Positions 45,200 through 58,891 of a stretch of 64,000 nt of DNA are shown piece after piece. Source of the stretch: Variovorax sp. CAN15 (GTDB lineage Bacteria > Pseudomonadota > Gammaproteobacteria > Burkholderiales > Burkholderiaceae_C); the NCBI RefSeq assembly GCF_030462475.1, contig NZ_JASMRZ010000014.1:40671-104670 (forward strand). The letters run 5' to 3'. The notes under the pieces were generated by a model. That model did not search any database and had not been told where the DNA came from. It saw nothing but the letters and a program-made list of their open reading frames with translations. Position 1 is the first letter of the stretch, and each line of letters starts with the position of its first letter. The position numbers were made by a program, and so were the translations under genes.

Positions 45200-45349
45200 G
45201 GAATTTCTCCTGGGTTGTAGAAGGTCAGCAGCTCCTCGCTGCTGAGGGGTCTACACGCCAGGGAGAGGTTTGGATGCAGGGGGGCGAAGTTTTCTTAGGC
45301 GCTCGTCTTTTATCGAATCCGAGTCGGATCGTGAAATACGAGCAGTCGA

Positions 45350-45483
45350 TTGACGATAGACAACAGTGTTTTCAGCGACGCCCACGTACAACGCGCCGTC
45401 ATCTATCCGAAGCGTATCGAATGAAACAAGGAAATTTCGTGAGCGGCGATCCGCCGAGCAACGGAGGCCGGGCGTTGCCCTGT
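45350..45483 (+). repeat. PAAR leader repeat, copy 1
   Basis: The sequence ttgacgatagacaacagtgtt followed by a diverged stretch up to the codons for GDPPSNGGRALPC matches 58266-58398; the first 21 bases are identical and the rest partly so. It covers most of the gap between the DUF3455 gene and the PAAR gene. It may hold the promoter (TTGACG at 45350) and serves as a shared 5' module of two PAAR-type loci. Confidence 0.7.
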
Positions 45484-45516
45484 CAGACATCAATCGCACT
45501 GATCAAGGGAGCGTAA
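45421..45516 (+). pseudogene. PAAR head peptide (31 residues), truncated gene or leader peptide
   Basis: The short frame MKQGNFVSGDPPSNGGRALP ends in CQTSIALIKGA and a TAA two bases before the next PAAR gene. The N-terminus copies the usual opening of PAAR proteins (V-x-GD-x-x-x-x-GG). It stops where a full PAAR protein would continue, so it is either a remnant of a replaced gene or a translated leader that couples to the PAAR gene. Confidence 0.55.
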
Positions 45517-45518
45517 AG

Positions 45519-46073
45519 ATGGGAGAGATACTTTCAATCATCAGGCTGGGCGACAGGACTACGCACGGCGGGACAGTGGCCGAAGCATTCCCGATCGGAA
45601 GAGCAGACGTCTATGAAATCCCCGCGGCAGGGCTCGGCCACTTGACCATTTGCCCTCTCCATCCGGGACCACATCGCATAGCAGAAGGTGTTTCTTCGTA
45701 CACGGTTGACGGCATTCCTGTTGCCGTCGAGGGCATGCTTACCACTTGTGGAGCGGCATTGATTCCTTCGCAGCACACCGCGAGAGTTGAACGAGTCAGC
45801 ACAGCGGTCATCGCAGACTCGGATGAATTCCATCAAGATCATGCGGGCTACTGGCACTCGGGTCCCGCCCCCAAGATTCCTCACGACGAGCAATTCGTCT
45901 TGCTGGACATGAAGTCAGCAAGGCCTCTGGCCAACATGACCTACCAAATCAAGACCGAGTCGGGTGAGATCATTTCCGGCGTGACCGATTCAGAGGGAAA
46001 AACTCAACGCGTCACGACCACATTGCCAGAGCAACTTGTGTTCAGCATCGTTCATCAAGGCGTCAAGCAATGA
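45519..46073 (+). CDS. PAAR-domain protein (type VI secretion spike tip) with C-terminal extension
   Basis: PAAR proteins cap the VgrG spike of type VI secretion systems and carry effectors. From ATG 45519 (GGGAG eight bases upstream) the 184-residue product has MGEILSIIRLGDRTTHGGTV and GIPVAVEGMLTTCGAALIPS, the repeated PAAR turns. Residues of about 125-184 (EQFVLLDMKSARPLANMTYQ, VTDSEGKTQRVTT) form a beta-rich domain like those at VgrG/PAAR C-termini. The stop overlaps the next gene's ATG (ATGA), which suggests loading of that product. No vgrG or other T6SS gene is in the window. Confidence 0.82.
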   Translation: MGEILSIIRLGDRTTHGGTVAEAFPIGRADVYEIPAAGLGHLTICPLHPGPHRIAEGVSSYTVDGIPVAVEGMLTTCGAALIPSQHTARVERVSTAVIADSDEFHQDHAGYWHSGPAPKIPHDEQFVLLDMKSARPLANMTYQIKTESGEIISGVTDSEGKTQRVTTTLPEQLVFSIVHQGVKQ

Positions 46074-47005
46074 CTGAACAAGTTGCCGCAGTCGGCACGG
46101 GCGCCACAAACCAGACACCCGGCTCCACAGTTGTTGTATCGGTCGCCGATCTCACACTCGCATGGGAGATCCAGAGCAACACAATCAACAACGACAAGTT
46201 GCCGATCATCCCGACGGCGTCGCGGGTTCAGAGCGGCCAGATCCTTTACCGTTTGAAGATCAAGGCCACGGTAACCAGCATCGGCAGGAACGCGCCCGAG
46301 GCCGGGCACGCATTGACCGTCTCGAGCGACAGAGGGGGTGACACCATCAGGACCTCCTCTGCTGCGACAGATGCTGCAGGCACCGTGATCGTGACCTTGG
46401 AGAGCCGAGAAAAAGGAAAACTCAAACTGTCGATCTCGGAGAGGGACGTCACCTTTGTTCCGCTAGAGATCACTTTGTCGGATGCCTGGTATGAAAGTCC
46501 CTTCCTGCTGACGGGCTACAACGTCTGCAACGAGTCCGATTTCAACGGAGCAATGGTCACGGCGAACGGACTTTCAAATCAGCATCGCGATGACTTTCTC
46601 TTCGGCGCCAGAGGCGTCGTGATGCAGGGCACAGGAATGGCTCTCAATGGTCAGTACGTTCGGCCAACTCGTGTCGGTTCGACATGGGCAACAAATTCCC
46701 GGGGCCATCCAACCCGAATGGCAAACCCTGGAGGCGTCACGTTTGCCTACACGGCCGGAGTCCATGGCGCTTTTGGAGCAGTCACGGCGGGGCGGTCAAT
46801 TGCGGTGGACCCCAGAGTTATCCCACCCCACGGGAAGGTAGAGATCGACTCTATCGGCACGCGATATGCGGACGATCGCGGAAGCAGAATTCGGGACTAT
46901 CACATCGACAACTTCCTAGGTGCTGGAAACAGCGTGGTGCAAGCATGGCAAGCGAGCGGTTTCAACAGCACCCAACGCAAGGTCAAATTCATAGGAGGCC
47001 TCTAA
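46070..47005 (+). CDS. Probable T6SS effector with C-terminal 3D (MltA-like) peptidoglycan-hydrolase domain
   Basis: The 311-residue protein has an N-terminal part of unknown fold, an Ig-like beta domain at about residues 60-140 (YRLKIKATVTSIGRN, DAAGTVIVTLES) and a C-terminal domain at about 145-311. The latter contains LLTGYNVCNES and RSIAVDPRVIPPHGKVEIDS then RYADDRGSRIRDYHID, matching the 3D domain of lytic transglycosylases: A-V-D-x-x-x-I-P-x-G and the catalytic D in A-x-D-x-G. It has no signal peptide, as expected for a T6SS cargo delivered by the overlapping PAAR gene. The enzymatic activity is an inference. Confidence 0.7.
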   Translation: MTEQVAAVGTGATNQTPGSTVVVSVADLTLAWEIQSNTINNDKLPIIPTASRVQSGQILYRLKIKATVTSIGRNAPEAGHALTVSSDRGGDTIRTSSAATDAAGTVIVTLESREKGKLKLSISERDVTFVPLEITLSDAWYESPFLLTGYNVCNESDFNGAMVTANGLSNQHRDDFLFGARGVVMQGTGMALNGQYVRPTRVGSTWATNSRGHPTRMANPGGVTFAYTAGVHGAFGAVTAGRSIAVDPRVIPPHGKVEIDSIGTRYADDRGSRIRDYHIDNFLGAGNSVVQAWQASGFNSTQRKVKFIGGL

Positions 47006-47008
47006 CCC

Positions 47009-47419
47009 ATGAAACCACGATACGGCTCAATGCTCATCGCGCTCGGCGCACTTCTCTCGGCCGCACCGGCAGCTTGGGCCGACGGCACTGTCAGTTTCGA
47101 GCAGGACGTGCTGCCCATGATCAAGGTCAGGCCGGAGTTCGAAAAATTCCTGCTCGGGACACTCAAGGTCACCGATGCCGGATCAGGTACGCGCATCTCC
47201 GAACAGGCAATGCCTCACCTCGGTGGCGCTCGCATGGGGCCCTACGAGTTCAGAGCGACTTGGCGCAGTTCCAACGGCGACGTTCCGGTCACGCTCATCA
47301 TCGACACCAACACCAAATTTTTCGACAGGGCTGGTCGGGAGATCAGGAACGGCAGCCTGAAGAAGGCAGTCAGCGTGAAAGAAACGTTCGACTCCATCGA
47401 GATCGAGCAACCTCGTTGA
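47009..47419 (+). CDS. Secreted small protein, candidate immunity protein
   Basis: The 136-residue protein starts with a clear signal peptide (MLIALGALLSAAPAAWADG) and has a mixed alpha/beta mature part (VLPMIKVRPEFEKFLLGTL, YEFRATWRSSNGDVPVTLII). I recognise no family. AGGAGG ten bases upstream supports the start, three bases after the effector stop. A periplasmic protein directly behind a peptidoglycan-targeting T6SS effector is the typical position of its immunity protein, but this is inferred from position only. Confidence 0.6.
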   Translation: MKPRYGSMLIALGALLSAAPAAWADGTVSFEQDVLPMIKVRPEFEKFLLGTLKVTDAGSGTRISEQAMPHLGGARMGPYEFRATWRSSNGDVPVTLIIDTNTKFFDRAGREIRNGSLKKAVSVKETFDSIEIEQPR

Positions 47420-47432
47420 GCACCGCAGCCGC

Positions 47433-47903
47433 ATGAAATACCTCAACGCCATCATCCCTCTTGCCTGCGCCCTGGTGCCCACGTGGACCCTCGCTTGCTC
47501 ATTCGGCGGCCTCGAACACGACGTTCAGTTCGCCCCCGCAAGCACAAATCTCGAATCGCAGCAGGTCGTCTCGCTGACGAACTGGTTTGTCGAGCAGCAG
47601 AACCCGAAAAGGGCGACCGGAGGCATCTACCGTGCCGACATCCATGCAAGCGCCATCAAGGACGATGCCGCTTCGTTGAAGAAAGCGAACCTCCGGCTTG
47701 CCGAGATCGCCGATCTGTTGAAAACCTTGAGCACCACGGCCTCCGTCGAAGTGCAAGGGCACATCGATGAGTTCGAAAGCCAGGCGATAAGGCACCCGGA
47801 GCGTCTGGATGTTCTGAACGCAACCGTTCAACCCGCGTGCGCCAAAACAGTCTCGTGCTGCAAATGGTCAGAAGGATCTGCAGCGCCGCCCAAGCAGCAG
47901 TAA
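47433..47903 (+). CDS. Secreted OmpA-like-fold protein, paralogue 1
   Basis: The 156-residue protein has a signal peptide (IIPLACALVPTWTLAC) and a mature part starting CSFGGLEHDVQFAPASTNLESQQ, then LKKANLRLAEIADLLKTL. It shares the layout C-S-x..-F-x3-S-x2-L-x3-Q-x3-L-x2-W with the next gene and with the protein at 58337. These elements resemble a degenerate OmpA-type peptidoglycan-binding domain. Located in the effector cassette, it may be an additional immunity or envelope-protection protein. The C-terminus has three Cys residues. Confidence 0.6.
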   Translation: MKYLNAIIPLACALVPTWTLACSFGGLEHDVQFAPASTNLESQQVVSLTNWFVEQQNPKRATGGIYRADIHASAIKDDAASLKKANLRLAEIADLLKTLSTTASVEVQGHIDEFESQAIRHPERLDVLNATVQPACAKTVSCCKWSEGSAAPPKQQ

Positions 47904-47907
47904 GCCG

Positions 47908-48375
47908 ATGCACCGACGAATTCTCTGGGCTTTGGCCGCCATCCTCGCTGCGGGGCAAGCAACAGCATGCAGCTACATCGTGGCAACTCAGATCAGCTTT
48001 GAGAGCGGCTCTGCGGATCTGGACCGATCGCAGATCATCAAGCTCTCGGAGTGGCTGAACCGTTCCTACGCAGTCTTTCCCACGTACACGGGCGCAGGAG
48101 TAGAAACCGGGGCTTTCGGAGCCGTTCCCAGCGAGGCCAAGGCGTTGGCTGAACTGCGTGCGGCCAACACAGTGAGAGCGCTGCGCGTGTTGCTGCGCGC
48201 CGACCTTCCTGTGGAGACGCACTCCCAGGCATACCGCTCTCCAAAGAGCCCATTCGGTGAGAGCAACGATTTCGCTTCAATTCACCTCTATCCCGACGTT
48301 GAGGGACTGACGCTACTGAACTGCCGTCCGGCCCCAGCCCCGACGCCGAGCGTTGACGCAAAGGCCTCACCGTGA
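47908..48375 (+). CDS. Secreted OmpA-like-fold protein, paralogue 2
   Basis: The 155-residue protein has the signal ILWALAAILAAGQATAC and a mature part CSYIVATQISFESGSADLDRS, QIIKLSEWLNRSY, then SEAKALAELRAANTVRALRV, which resembles the OmpA helix that follows the N-x2-L-S-x2-RA motif. It is a paralogue of the gene before it (4-bp gap) and of the protein at 58337. Function is unknown. Its stop overlaps the next start (GTGA). Confidence 0.6.
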   Translation: MHRRILWALAAILAAGQATACSYIVATQISFESGSADLDRSQIIKLSEWLNRSYAVFPTYTGAGVETGAFGAVPSEAKALAELRAANTVRALRVLLRADLPVETHSQAYRSPKSPFGESNDFASIHLYPDVEGLTLLNCRPAPAPTPSVDAKASP

Positions 48376-56050: not shown

Positions 56051-56605
56051 TCAGCCCGCGTTGCCCACGGGCCTGAAGCCCCAGGCCTGCGCGCGGAACC
56101 CGGTGAAGCTGATGGGGCCGGCCACGGCGCCAGCCTCCGACTTGTTGTCCGTGAGCCCGATGACGAGCGGAGCATTCGAATTGCTCGCCCCCAACTTGCA
56201 CTGGATGTACCAGTAGCCGGGTTCCTCGGTGGACAGAAGGCTCCAGAGTTGCCTGTCGGCATCGTCCAGGCCGGGAGGCATCATCACGAGGGGTGTGGGC
56301 ACGCTCGTGGAGTCCGGCTTCAGCGTCAGGACGAACCCGGTGCCCATCTGCGTCTGCAGATACCACCAGCCCGGCGCCTGGGGCGAGGGAACGAACAGCC
56401 ATTGCTGGTTGCCGGCCTGCGGCAGCTTGAGCGTGTAGCCGATGACCCCTGCGCCCTTGGCCGGGCTGTTGCCGTTCACGTCCAGCACGTAGTGGCCGTC
56501 GGGCAGGTACTGGATGTTGTACGGACCGAGATCCAGCTTCTCGATGGGAATCGCGGGTGAGGATGCGGGTGCTGGCGCTGCAGCACCTGTTGCGGTGATC
56601 GACAT
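56051..56605 (-). CDS. Beta-trefoil (ricin-B-like) protein, partner of the patatin gene
   Basis: The 184-residue protein has three similar segments, each with a Gly and Trp pair (GNQQWLFVPSPQAPGWWYLQ, DRQLWSLLSTEEPGYWYIQC, and AQAWGFRPV), the pattern of a beta-trefoil. It lacks a clear signal peptide; the N-terminus is Ala/Pro-rich. It lies 55 bp downstream of a patatin-like gene on the same strand, so the two may act together, with this one as a binding module. Exact ligand unknown. Confidence 0.6.
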   Translation of the reverse strand: MSITATGAAAPAPASSPAIPIEKLDLGPYNIQYLPDGHYVLDVNGNSPAKGAGVIGYTLKLPQAGNQQWLFVPSPQAPGWWYLQTQMGTGFVLTLKPDSTSVPTPLVMMPPGLDDADRQLWSLLSTEEPGYWYIQCKLGASNSNAPLVIGLTDNKSEAGAVAGPISFTGFRAQAWGFRPVGNAG

Positions 56606-56660: not shown

Positions 56661-57650
56661 TCAGCCGAGCGCGTGTTCGACCCAGTACTTCCGCACCAGG
56701 GCCTCGGCATACGCGGTGTCCGCGTTGGCGCCTTTGTCCTGCAGCAGCTGCAGGGCCTGCGGGTAGACCGTGTTCTCCGGCACGAAGAAGGGCAGCGTCG
56801 GGTTGATATTGGTGTAGCGGTCGCCCAGCAGCATCTTGGCGAGCATCGGCATGAGCTCGGTCGAAGTGCCGTTCAGGCTCATGTCGAGCACAGGCGAAGA
56901 CTTCGTCTGGTTCATGAGGAACGGCGGCGAATTGTTGAAGGGGTTCGCCACGCCGTTCATCCATTGGTCGGCGCCCCACTCGTGGGTGTCGCTGGCGACC
57001 CAGTCGGGCATGTAGCCGGTGCCGATGGTGATGGCCGCGATGTCTTCGAGCGCATGGCCCGCCTTCACCGCCAGCGCAATCGCCGCGACCGTGGGGTCGT
57101 GGTTGAAGAAGCAGCCGTCGACGTTGCCTTCGAACGAACCCAGCTGCCCCGGCATCGCACCGCTGGAAGTGGCCGCCTTGGCGATCTCCACGTCGCCATG
57201 GTCGGGGATCATGTTGGTGTACATGACCGGCTGCCAGGGTATGGCCGTCTGCACCGAGTTCTTCACCTCGAGCCCGCCGACGTTGAAGGTGACGAAGAGC
57301 ACCTTCCTCGTGACGATGTCCTGGACCTTCGTGGTGCCATGCAGCGCGACCTGCGAGGCGTAGACCTCGTCGATGGGGTACGCGGGCCGCTTCGGATCGG
57401 TGTTCATCTTTTCGTAGAACCCGATCTCGCCCTTCTGGCTGGTGAAAAGGTTGATGAGGTCCTGCGGCGACTTGCCCGCCAACAGCTCGCTCGTGATGAT
57501 CGAGCCGGTGGAGCACCCCGCGATGAGGTCGCTGTTGGCGATGATCTGCGGGTACTTCTGGTAAATCTTGTTCAGTACCGATACCGACATCAGCCCCCGT
57601 ATGCCACCGCCTACGAACGAGAGGATGGTGAATTTCTGCGTTTCCGCCAT
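56661..57650 (-). CDS. Patatin-like phospholipase
   Basis: The 329-residue protein has the oxyanion loop SFVGGGIRGLMS, the nucleophile elbow AGCSTGSII (G-x-S-x-G), and the dyad Asp in NVDGCFFNHDP. These are the features of patatin-type phospholipases/lipases. No signal peptide is present. The track TTG start is rejected for ATG 57650, which has AAGGAG six bases upstream. CapV-like lipases of CBASS are patatins too, but no cyclase gene is adjacent. T6SS lipase effectors are another patatin niche; context here does not decide. Confidence 0.85.
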   Translation of the reverse strand: MAETQKFTILSFVGGGIRGLMSVSVLNKIYQKYPQIIANSDLIAGCSTGSIITSELLAGKSPQDLINLFTSQKGEIGFYEKMNTDPKRPAYPIDEVYASQVALHGTTKVQDIVTRKVLFVTFNVGGLEVKNSVQTAIPWQPVMYTNMIPDHGDVEIAKAATSSGAMPGQLGSFEGNVDGCFFNHDPTVAAIALAVKAGHALEDIAAITIGTGYMPDWVASDTHEWGADQWMNGVANPFNNSPPFLMNQTKSSPVLDMSLNGTSTELMPMLAKMLLGDRYTNINPTLPFFVPENTVYPQALQLLQDKGANADTAYAEALVRKYWVEHALG

Positions 57651-57839
57651 AGCCAACTCCTTTCAAGAGAAATGACTTCCATGAAATGACTTCCCGGCCG
57701 GGGAAGCGGAGTCTGGGCGCGTCGGGCGTTTGCCGCTACGAGTGGAATCCCGTTCAATCCAACTCTGTAATTCCGCAAACCGCGCAAGCATTCGCAATGA
57801 AACCTTGCGCGGCAAAACTTGCTGCGAAGGTAGTCGTCT

Positions 57840-58094: not shown

Positions 58095-58265
58095 CGGCGG
58101 CTCCTCTTGGCGCACGATCAGTGACGCCGTGAAGTCACTCTATTCAGCGACGGAAAAAACGGTGAGTAACAACATCGTCGCGAATCGGACGGCGCACTCC
58201 CTAGGCCGCACCGGGAATCAGCGCCGAGTCGTGATCCGTGCTTTTCGTGAGAAATTTCTGAGCGT

Positions 58266-58398
58266 TTGACGATAGACAACAGTGTTAGCGCGCTCGGCCT
58301 CATACAACGCCTCGTCACAAGACGGGAGCGTATTGAATGGAACGAAAAATTCTCGTGGTCGGAGATCCGCCCATGCCTGGCGGCCGGGTGCTGCCCTA
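58266..58398 (+). repeat. PAAR leader repeat, copy 2
   Basis: ttgacgatagacaacagtgtt at 58266-58286 is identical to the start of copy 1 at 45350, and similarity continues (atacaacgcc, gagcgtattgaatggaac, gatccgcc..ggcggccgggtgctgccct) into the first 22 codons of the next gene. Both copies have the same orientation. Confidence 0.7.
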
Positions 58399-58891
58399 TG
58401 ACGGGCCCTTGCTCGATCTATTTCTGCGCATTCTGGCTCTCGCCCTTGCAATGCTCAGCCCGGTCGCCGCGCTCGCATGCAGCCCTATCAAGGTCTTCTA
58501 TGTGTACTTCGAGCGCGACTCGGCGACGGTATCTCCCGATCAGATACTGAAGCTTGACGCCTGGATGCAGGAGCTTCGAACGCGGTACGCCAACCACGAA
58601 GCGATCTATATCGGAGCATCAGTCAACCCGGAAGAACGAGACCACGATCCCAAAGGCCTGGGCCTGGACCGGGCACGCAACGTGGCTCTCGTTCTTCGAG
58701 AAGAACTGCGCTTCAATGCCAGGATCGCCCTTCCCAAGAGCGGCTACGTCGCCGACCCTGCGTCCCTTTCAAACGGACCCGCCGAAGACTCACGAGTTCT
58801 TGGAGTGCAGCTCGACTTCCTGCCGGCTTGCCCGCATGAATGCACCTGCCAGTTGGGCGATCCGCTCCATACGCAGCAGACTCCTCGCTGA
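58337..58891 (+). CDS. PAAR head fused in frame to a secreted OmpA-like protein (paralogue 3)
   Basis: The 184-residue frame opens MERKILVVGDPPMPGGRVLP, a PAAR N-terminus, and at about residue 25 switches to a signal-peptide-like stretch (LFLRILALALAMLSPVAALAC) and a mature part CSPIKVFYVYFERDSATVSP, QILKLDAWMQELRTRY, GLGLDRARNVALVLREEL. The last parts match paralogues at 47433 and 47908 and an OmpA-type fold. It is probably the product of a deletion that joined a PAAR head to a downstream immunity-type gene. Translation may instead begin at TTG 58409. Confidence 0.55.
   Translation: MERKILVVGDPPMPGGRVLPYDGPLLDLFLRILALALAMLSPVAALACSPIKVFYVYFERDSATVSPDQILKLDAWMQELRTRYANHEAIYIGASVNPEERDHDPKGLGLDRARNVALVLREELRFNARIALPKSGYVADPASLSNGPAEDSRVLGVQLDFLPACPHECTCQLGDPLHTQQTPR

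Follow-up and report, generated by a model that had tools for sequence, protein, structure and literature searches.

A probable orphan T6SS immunity gene carrying the start of a lost PAAR effector in Variovorax sp. CAN15

Why would the beginning of a PAAR effector stand in frame before a secreted OmpA-like protein? The question is raised by a gene of Variovorax sp. CAN15, a soil bacterium, in the stretch of 64,000 nucleotides analysed here (the window). The ORF at 58337-58891 on the forward strand (184 aa) is open, as described in an earlier sequence-only reading, and runs from a PAAR head through a hydrophobic stretch ending in AALA to a Cys-containing OmpA-like domain (Table 1). We think it very likely that a deletion has rewired this gene into an orphan T6SS immunity gene, which uses the promoter, ribosome-binding site and start of the effector that was lost and is still probably protective.

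Table 1. Features of the fused frame and of the first leader copy in the window
Feature	Position	Strand	Basis
Leader (promoter-like / 5' UTR) of PAAR-M35 gene, second copy	58263..58336	+	precedes most intact PAAR-M35 genes
PAAR head of 27-28 codons (MERKILVVGDPPMPGGRVLPYDGPLLDL) that starts at the ATG of the lost effector	58337..58420	+	HMM E 1.5e-17
Joint left by the deletion; breakpoint at 58417-58425, give or take a few bases	58412..58432	+	collinearity break against V. guangxiensis
Signal peptide, hydrophobic core and end (LFLRILALALAMLSPVAALA)	58421..58477	+	aligned with unfused relatives
OmpA-like immunity-type protein, mature part from Cys48 to the stop	58478..58891	+	HMM E 2e-62 (window protein in training set); OmpA fold in model
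First leader copy	45347..45420	+	73% repeat match; exact 21-nt box at 45350-45370
31-codon head remnant (MKQGNFVSGDPPSNGGRALPCQTSIALIKGA, stop), second decayed PAAR-M35 head	45421..45516	+	HMM HEAD positions 7-20, E 1.3e-4
Unrelated PAAR protein now after first leader	45519..46073	+	Pfam PAAR_motif 61 bits
Putative effector with a 3D domain and an Ig-like one (Big_1, under the cut-off)	46070..47005	+	Pfam 3D 32.2 bits
Remote OmpA-like immunity-family gene	47433..47903	+	HMM E 1.6e-10
Unfused OmpA-like immunity-family gene	47908..48375	+	HMM E 1.7e-41

Composition of the fused frame

Residues 1-29 are homologous to the starts of PAAR-M35 proteins (E 1.5e-17 with an HMM built from 30 relatives, a value that does not arise by construction), and 25 of 26 head residues are identical to the start of the PAAR-M35 protein of V. 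guangxiensis. The earlier count of 24 PAAR-type codons was thus right about the origin of the head and somewhat short in length, which is about 27-28 codons. Homology to PAAR proteins is confined to residues 1-28, and the PAAR motif (PF05488, about 70 residues) gave no Pfam match in the fused ORF. The Aspzincin_M35 domain with HEXXH is absent from the window locus, and searches of NCBIfam and PADLOC returned no match for the fused ORF.

The remainder of the ORF fits a secreted OmpA-like family with E 2e-62, a value that is partly by construction because the HMM, built from 31 relatives, includes the window protein; these relatives and those of PAAR-M35 were drawn from the same searches. The Pfam OmpA score (PF00691; 17.1 bits against a cut-off of 27.2) is on its own only suggestive, and a paralogue of the protein passes that cut-off with 28.7 bits. 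In an AlphaFold model (mean pLDDT 79) of the fused protein, residues 24-39 form a helix and the core is OmpA-like. Foldseek matched the model to PDB domains of the OmpA-like kind (best E 1.1e-4; 3td5 and similar) as well as to the TagL domain 5m38, so that peptidoglycan-binding domains of OmpA, OprF and TagL are among the fold matches. The in-frame passage into an OmpA-like domain, as first noticed, is confirmed. Of the Asp/Arg pair by which such domains bind peptidoglycan, Arg112, in the L-x-x-x-R helix motif, is invariant in the alignment of the 31 relatives, whereas the position of the Asp, usually part of TDxxG, is variable. The window protein shares with PF00691 periplasmic domains the fold match and the conserved Arg112, but differs from them in its score below the Pfam cut-off, the variable TDxxG Asp and a context of toxin-linked immunity.

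The mature part is 94-95% identical to the OmpA-like gene that lies downstream of the M35 toxin in V. guangxiensis. Alignment with unfused relatives indicates that the native start codon and the N-region of the immunity signal peptide were lost at the window locus. The signal peptide and its cleavage site were assigned by eye, and cleavage would fall before Cys48.

Ahead of the ORF, the leader carries a box (TTGACGATAGACAACAGTGTT, 58266-58286), a TACAAC about -35 from the ATG and a Shine-Dalgarno sequence, GGGAG, at 58324-58328. That it is a second copy was correctly noticed before, since 58263-58397 matches 45347-45481 (73% over 136 nt, E 2e-14). The same element lies upstream of most intact PAAR-M35 genes, and the exact box occurs in V. 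guangxiensis, Variovorax sp. Root473 and an uncultured Variovorax (a MAG) at these loci only; we suspect that it acts as a promoter. Many PAAR-M35 loci have a near-palindrome of the type TTGACA-N11-TGTCAA some 50-75 nt before the ATG, followed by TACAAC and a Shine-Dalgarno sequence, an arrangement reminiscent of a promoter and a site for its regulator.

Intact and deleted alleles at the window locus

The sequence-only reading had proposed that a PAAR body and effector were deleted, leaving the leader joined to an orphan immunity gene, and had suggested looking for strains in which an intact PAAR effector lies between these parts. Two such strains were found. In V. guangxiensis DSM 27352 the leader is followed by a PAAR-M35 metallopeptidase (329 aa) and then by an OmpA-like secreted protein, and Root473 has a PAAR-M35 protein of 336 aa followed by the immunity gene. 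Comparison with V. guangxiensis supports the deletion: both flanks are collinear, the break is at 58417, and 931 nt are missing from the window, from PAAR codon ~28 to inside the OmpA-like signal peptide. In V. guangxiensis these bases hold the rest of the PAAR gene, the M35 domain with HEVTHFDDTF and the native OmpA-like start. TCGAT or ATTT may represent microhomology at the breakpoint. A local misassembly of the joint is conceivable, though nothing suggests one. The cognate effector present in relatives is absent beside the window immunity gene, as in an orphan.

In the MAG (G100) the leader is joined directly to the immunity gene, which keeps its own GTG, and the head is absent. A single deletion in the MAG and the window was considered and rejected, as neither allele is derivable from the other: the MAG has no head and a native start, the window a head and no native start. 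Judged by its different joint, the MAG deletion is an independent event. Given this and the intact alleles of V. guangxiensis and Root473, an intact PAAR-M35 gene is the best-supported ancestral state at this locus. Block identities would fit a recombination event, upstream of the locus, with a lineage resembling the MAG; this conclusion is unaffected by it.

The opposite polarity, in which fusion came first and relatives became intact when a PAAR-M35 body was inserted into the fused gene, draws on the fused forms that more than one species shares at locus 1 and on contig C13. We give it hardly any credence, because the window locus is elsewhere either intact (V. guangxiensis, Root473) or differently joined (the MAG), 36 intact PAAR proteins have a contiguous start to which the head is homologous, and an insertion would have needed to bring the exact missing PAAR residues every time. 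A joint conserved across many genomes had been named earlier as evidence against a deletion; among 102 Variovorax genomes the window joint occurs in its own genome only.

Toxin-less joints across Variovorax

The survey covered these 102 genomes and a wider family sample, with counts taken from fetched loci. The OmpA-like family is present in 29 of the 102, and the wider sample adds the PAAR-M35-OmpA-like module in one further genus. In all 36 modules counted as intact, the head, PAAR body and M35 are present and an OmpA-like gene comes after M35, a gene order that suggests a toxin-immunity pair; three of the 36 carry a frameshift. At least 10 distinct junctions drop the M35 toxin yet keep the immunity gene (Table 2). 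Fusion by deletion, as first proposed, is supported, with the qualification that it is no one-off event: at least three other head-immunity junctions exist, two of them common to more than one species, so the fusion seems to be a recurrent outcome that is retained. At each of three sites (loci 1 and 2 and the C13 site) some species have an intact and others a deleted allele; at the C13 site the intact one is a PAAR-M35 module in G044.

Table 2. Toxin-less joints and related remnants
Joint	Genome or place	Structure
E1	window	in-frame head-immunity fusion
E2	G100 (MAG)	leader joined to immunity gene with own GTG
E3	contig C13 in G000 and G020	in-frame head-immunity fusion
E4	G050	in-frame head-immunity fusion, MMRRILVVG joined to GKVNKHRQ...
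E5	G088, G018, decayed copy in G020	in-frame head-immunity fusion, MDRE[IL] joined to ...
E6	G018	head, then last 8 M35 codons and stop; immunity gene with own ATG
E7	G040	PAAR retained, M35 core gone
E8	window's first leader	31-codon head remnant, then unrelated PAAR; further case
E9	G101	in-frame internal deletion; head and M35 tail kept
E10	G013 C23	toxin-less joint
E11	G008 C5	leader joined to last M35 codons
	G051, C13 site	further toxin-less orphan (L082 and L088 loci: intact G044, orphan G051)

The genome of the window itself holds related modules. On contig C44 an OmpA-like gene (172 aa) overlaps an intact PAAR-M35 gene, whose 334-aa product scores 43 bits for Pfam Aspzincin_M35, and contig C13 has a second, different head-OmpA fusion (MMRKVIVVGDPPAPGGAVLPYGGYVVW...), also found in V. 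guangxiensis. TssC genes were found, so T6SS genes are present. In G008 (L086:880-2300), a PAAR-M35 protein and its OmpA-like partner form one continuous ORF, with toxin and immunity in one frame. G013 carries a PAAR-M35 module and gave no TssC match, and thus may be without a T6SS.

In three of the four in-frame fusions there is no native ATG between the head and the signal-peptide core, and the long N-terminal extensions in the family alignment belong to fused members. Heads vary in length (about 27, 26, 9 and 5 codons) yet always include the effector's ATG, which would be compatible with a PAAR head that has a job of its own, whether as a tag for delivery or for docking to the spike, or as a lengthened signal peptide that alters targeting. 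We regard such a role as very unlikely: the lengths reveal no conserved functional unit, a 28-residue head is without most of the roughly 70-residue PAAR motif, and an N-terminal tag would go with the signal peptide.

The ORF could also be a decaying pseudogene, in frame by chance after the deletion, whose product is not made or exported. Pointing that way are a decayed head-immunity remnant at locus 1 of V. guangxiensis, the extra non-synonymous changes on the window branch (9 versus 2, with the re-aligned signal peptide counted in) and a dN/dS of about 0.66 for the C13 fusion, from only 11 changed codons. We nevertheless consider decay improbable, given that the window ORF retains its ribosome-binding site, start, reading frame, hydrophobic core and cysteines, and that four in-frame joints keeping the immunity ORF would be hard to get by chance. 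The E5 fused orphan, compared between two species (G088 and G018), is moreover under strong purifying selection (dN/dS 0.17, dS 0.85, 174 codons); such fusions therefore appear to be maintained genes, and maintenance after fusion is supported if the shared joint is ancestral. Between the window and V. guangxiensis immunity genes, dN/dS is 0.11 over 150 codons, a value that partly reflects pre-deletion divergence, and most of this divergence may be older than the deletion.

Proposed rewiring, known systems and neighbouring genes

We suggest the following course for the rewired orphan. The ancestor would have carried the leader, a PAAR-M35 metallopeptidase effector and an OmpA-like periplasmic immunity gene starting at or overlapping the effector stop. 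Immunity starts lie so in the intact modules, and immunity translation is therefore plausibly coupled to that of the effector. A deletion of ~0.93 kb, delimited by the comparison above, would have removed this coupling along with the effector, and the effector's Shine-Dalgarno sequence and ATG would have restored initiation. In E2 and E11 the native immunity start lies instead close behind the leader. The effector's promoter would now drive the immunity ORF, with translation beginning at the effector's first ATG, although a TTG at 58409 or an in-frame ATG at codon 13 could be used in its place. The residual PAAR residues would act only as an extended N-region before the Sec signal-peptide core and be removed with it at export, and the exported OmpA-fold protein probably still guards the cell against kin M35 toxins, such as that of V. 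guangxiensis. The same outcome has arisen repeatedly within the genus. It is somewhat more doubtful, though we lean towards it, that T6SS immunity regularly becomes stand-alone by a selected route of this kind, in which the toxin is excised and its promoter, ribosome-binding site and start are captured in frame, the PAAR N-region being tolerated as a lengthened signal peptide.

Vibrio cholerae is an established case of orphan immunity arising when effectors are displaced one after another (PMC5361080). The likeness extends to loss of the effector with retention of cognate immunity, immunity arrays and a conserved 5' module part between loci. The Vibrio arrays arise as new modules are inserted, whereas in Variovorax the effector is excised and its 5' end often fused in frame to immunity; a keyword search of that paper showed no head-immunity fusions. 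In P. aeruginosa isolates from cystic fibrosis, effector and immunity are lost together and orphan immunity is rare (tse4/tsi4; PMC12594252). PAAR effectors with a C-terminal Aspzincin_M35 domain are the source of the window head and leader and have an intact paralogue in the same genome, but the window locus is without their PAAR body and M35 domain. V. cholerae tsiV1-3 have promoters inside the effector gene (PMC3857813) and likewise express immunity independently of the effector, whereas at the window locus independence would come from the effector's own promoter and start codon. Orphan immunity is thus known, and what appears to be new is that an effector's 5' end is captured again and again; our literature search returned no head-immunity fusions and no pairing of PAAR with Aspzincin, an absence that is not proof of novelty. 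The locus gives a base-level view of an attack-and-shield pair becoming a shield only, with the before-state in sister species and several independent after-states, and it makes testable the general question of what keeps a downstream immunity gene translated after toxin loss. For annotators, 'PAAR' N-termini can occur on immunity proteins.

At the first leader copy (45347-48375), the leader and the 31-codon remnant are now followed by a PAAR gene unrelated to them, by a putative effector with a 3D domain that overlaps this gene by 4 nt (ATGA), and by several genes of immunity type; in V. guangxiensis the site is occupied by a different module of the PAAR-M35 kind. On the reverse strand, a patatin-like phospholipase-type ORF (56661-57656), with GGGIRG and GCSTGS motifs recognised by eye, adjoins another ORF of 184 aa (56051-56605).
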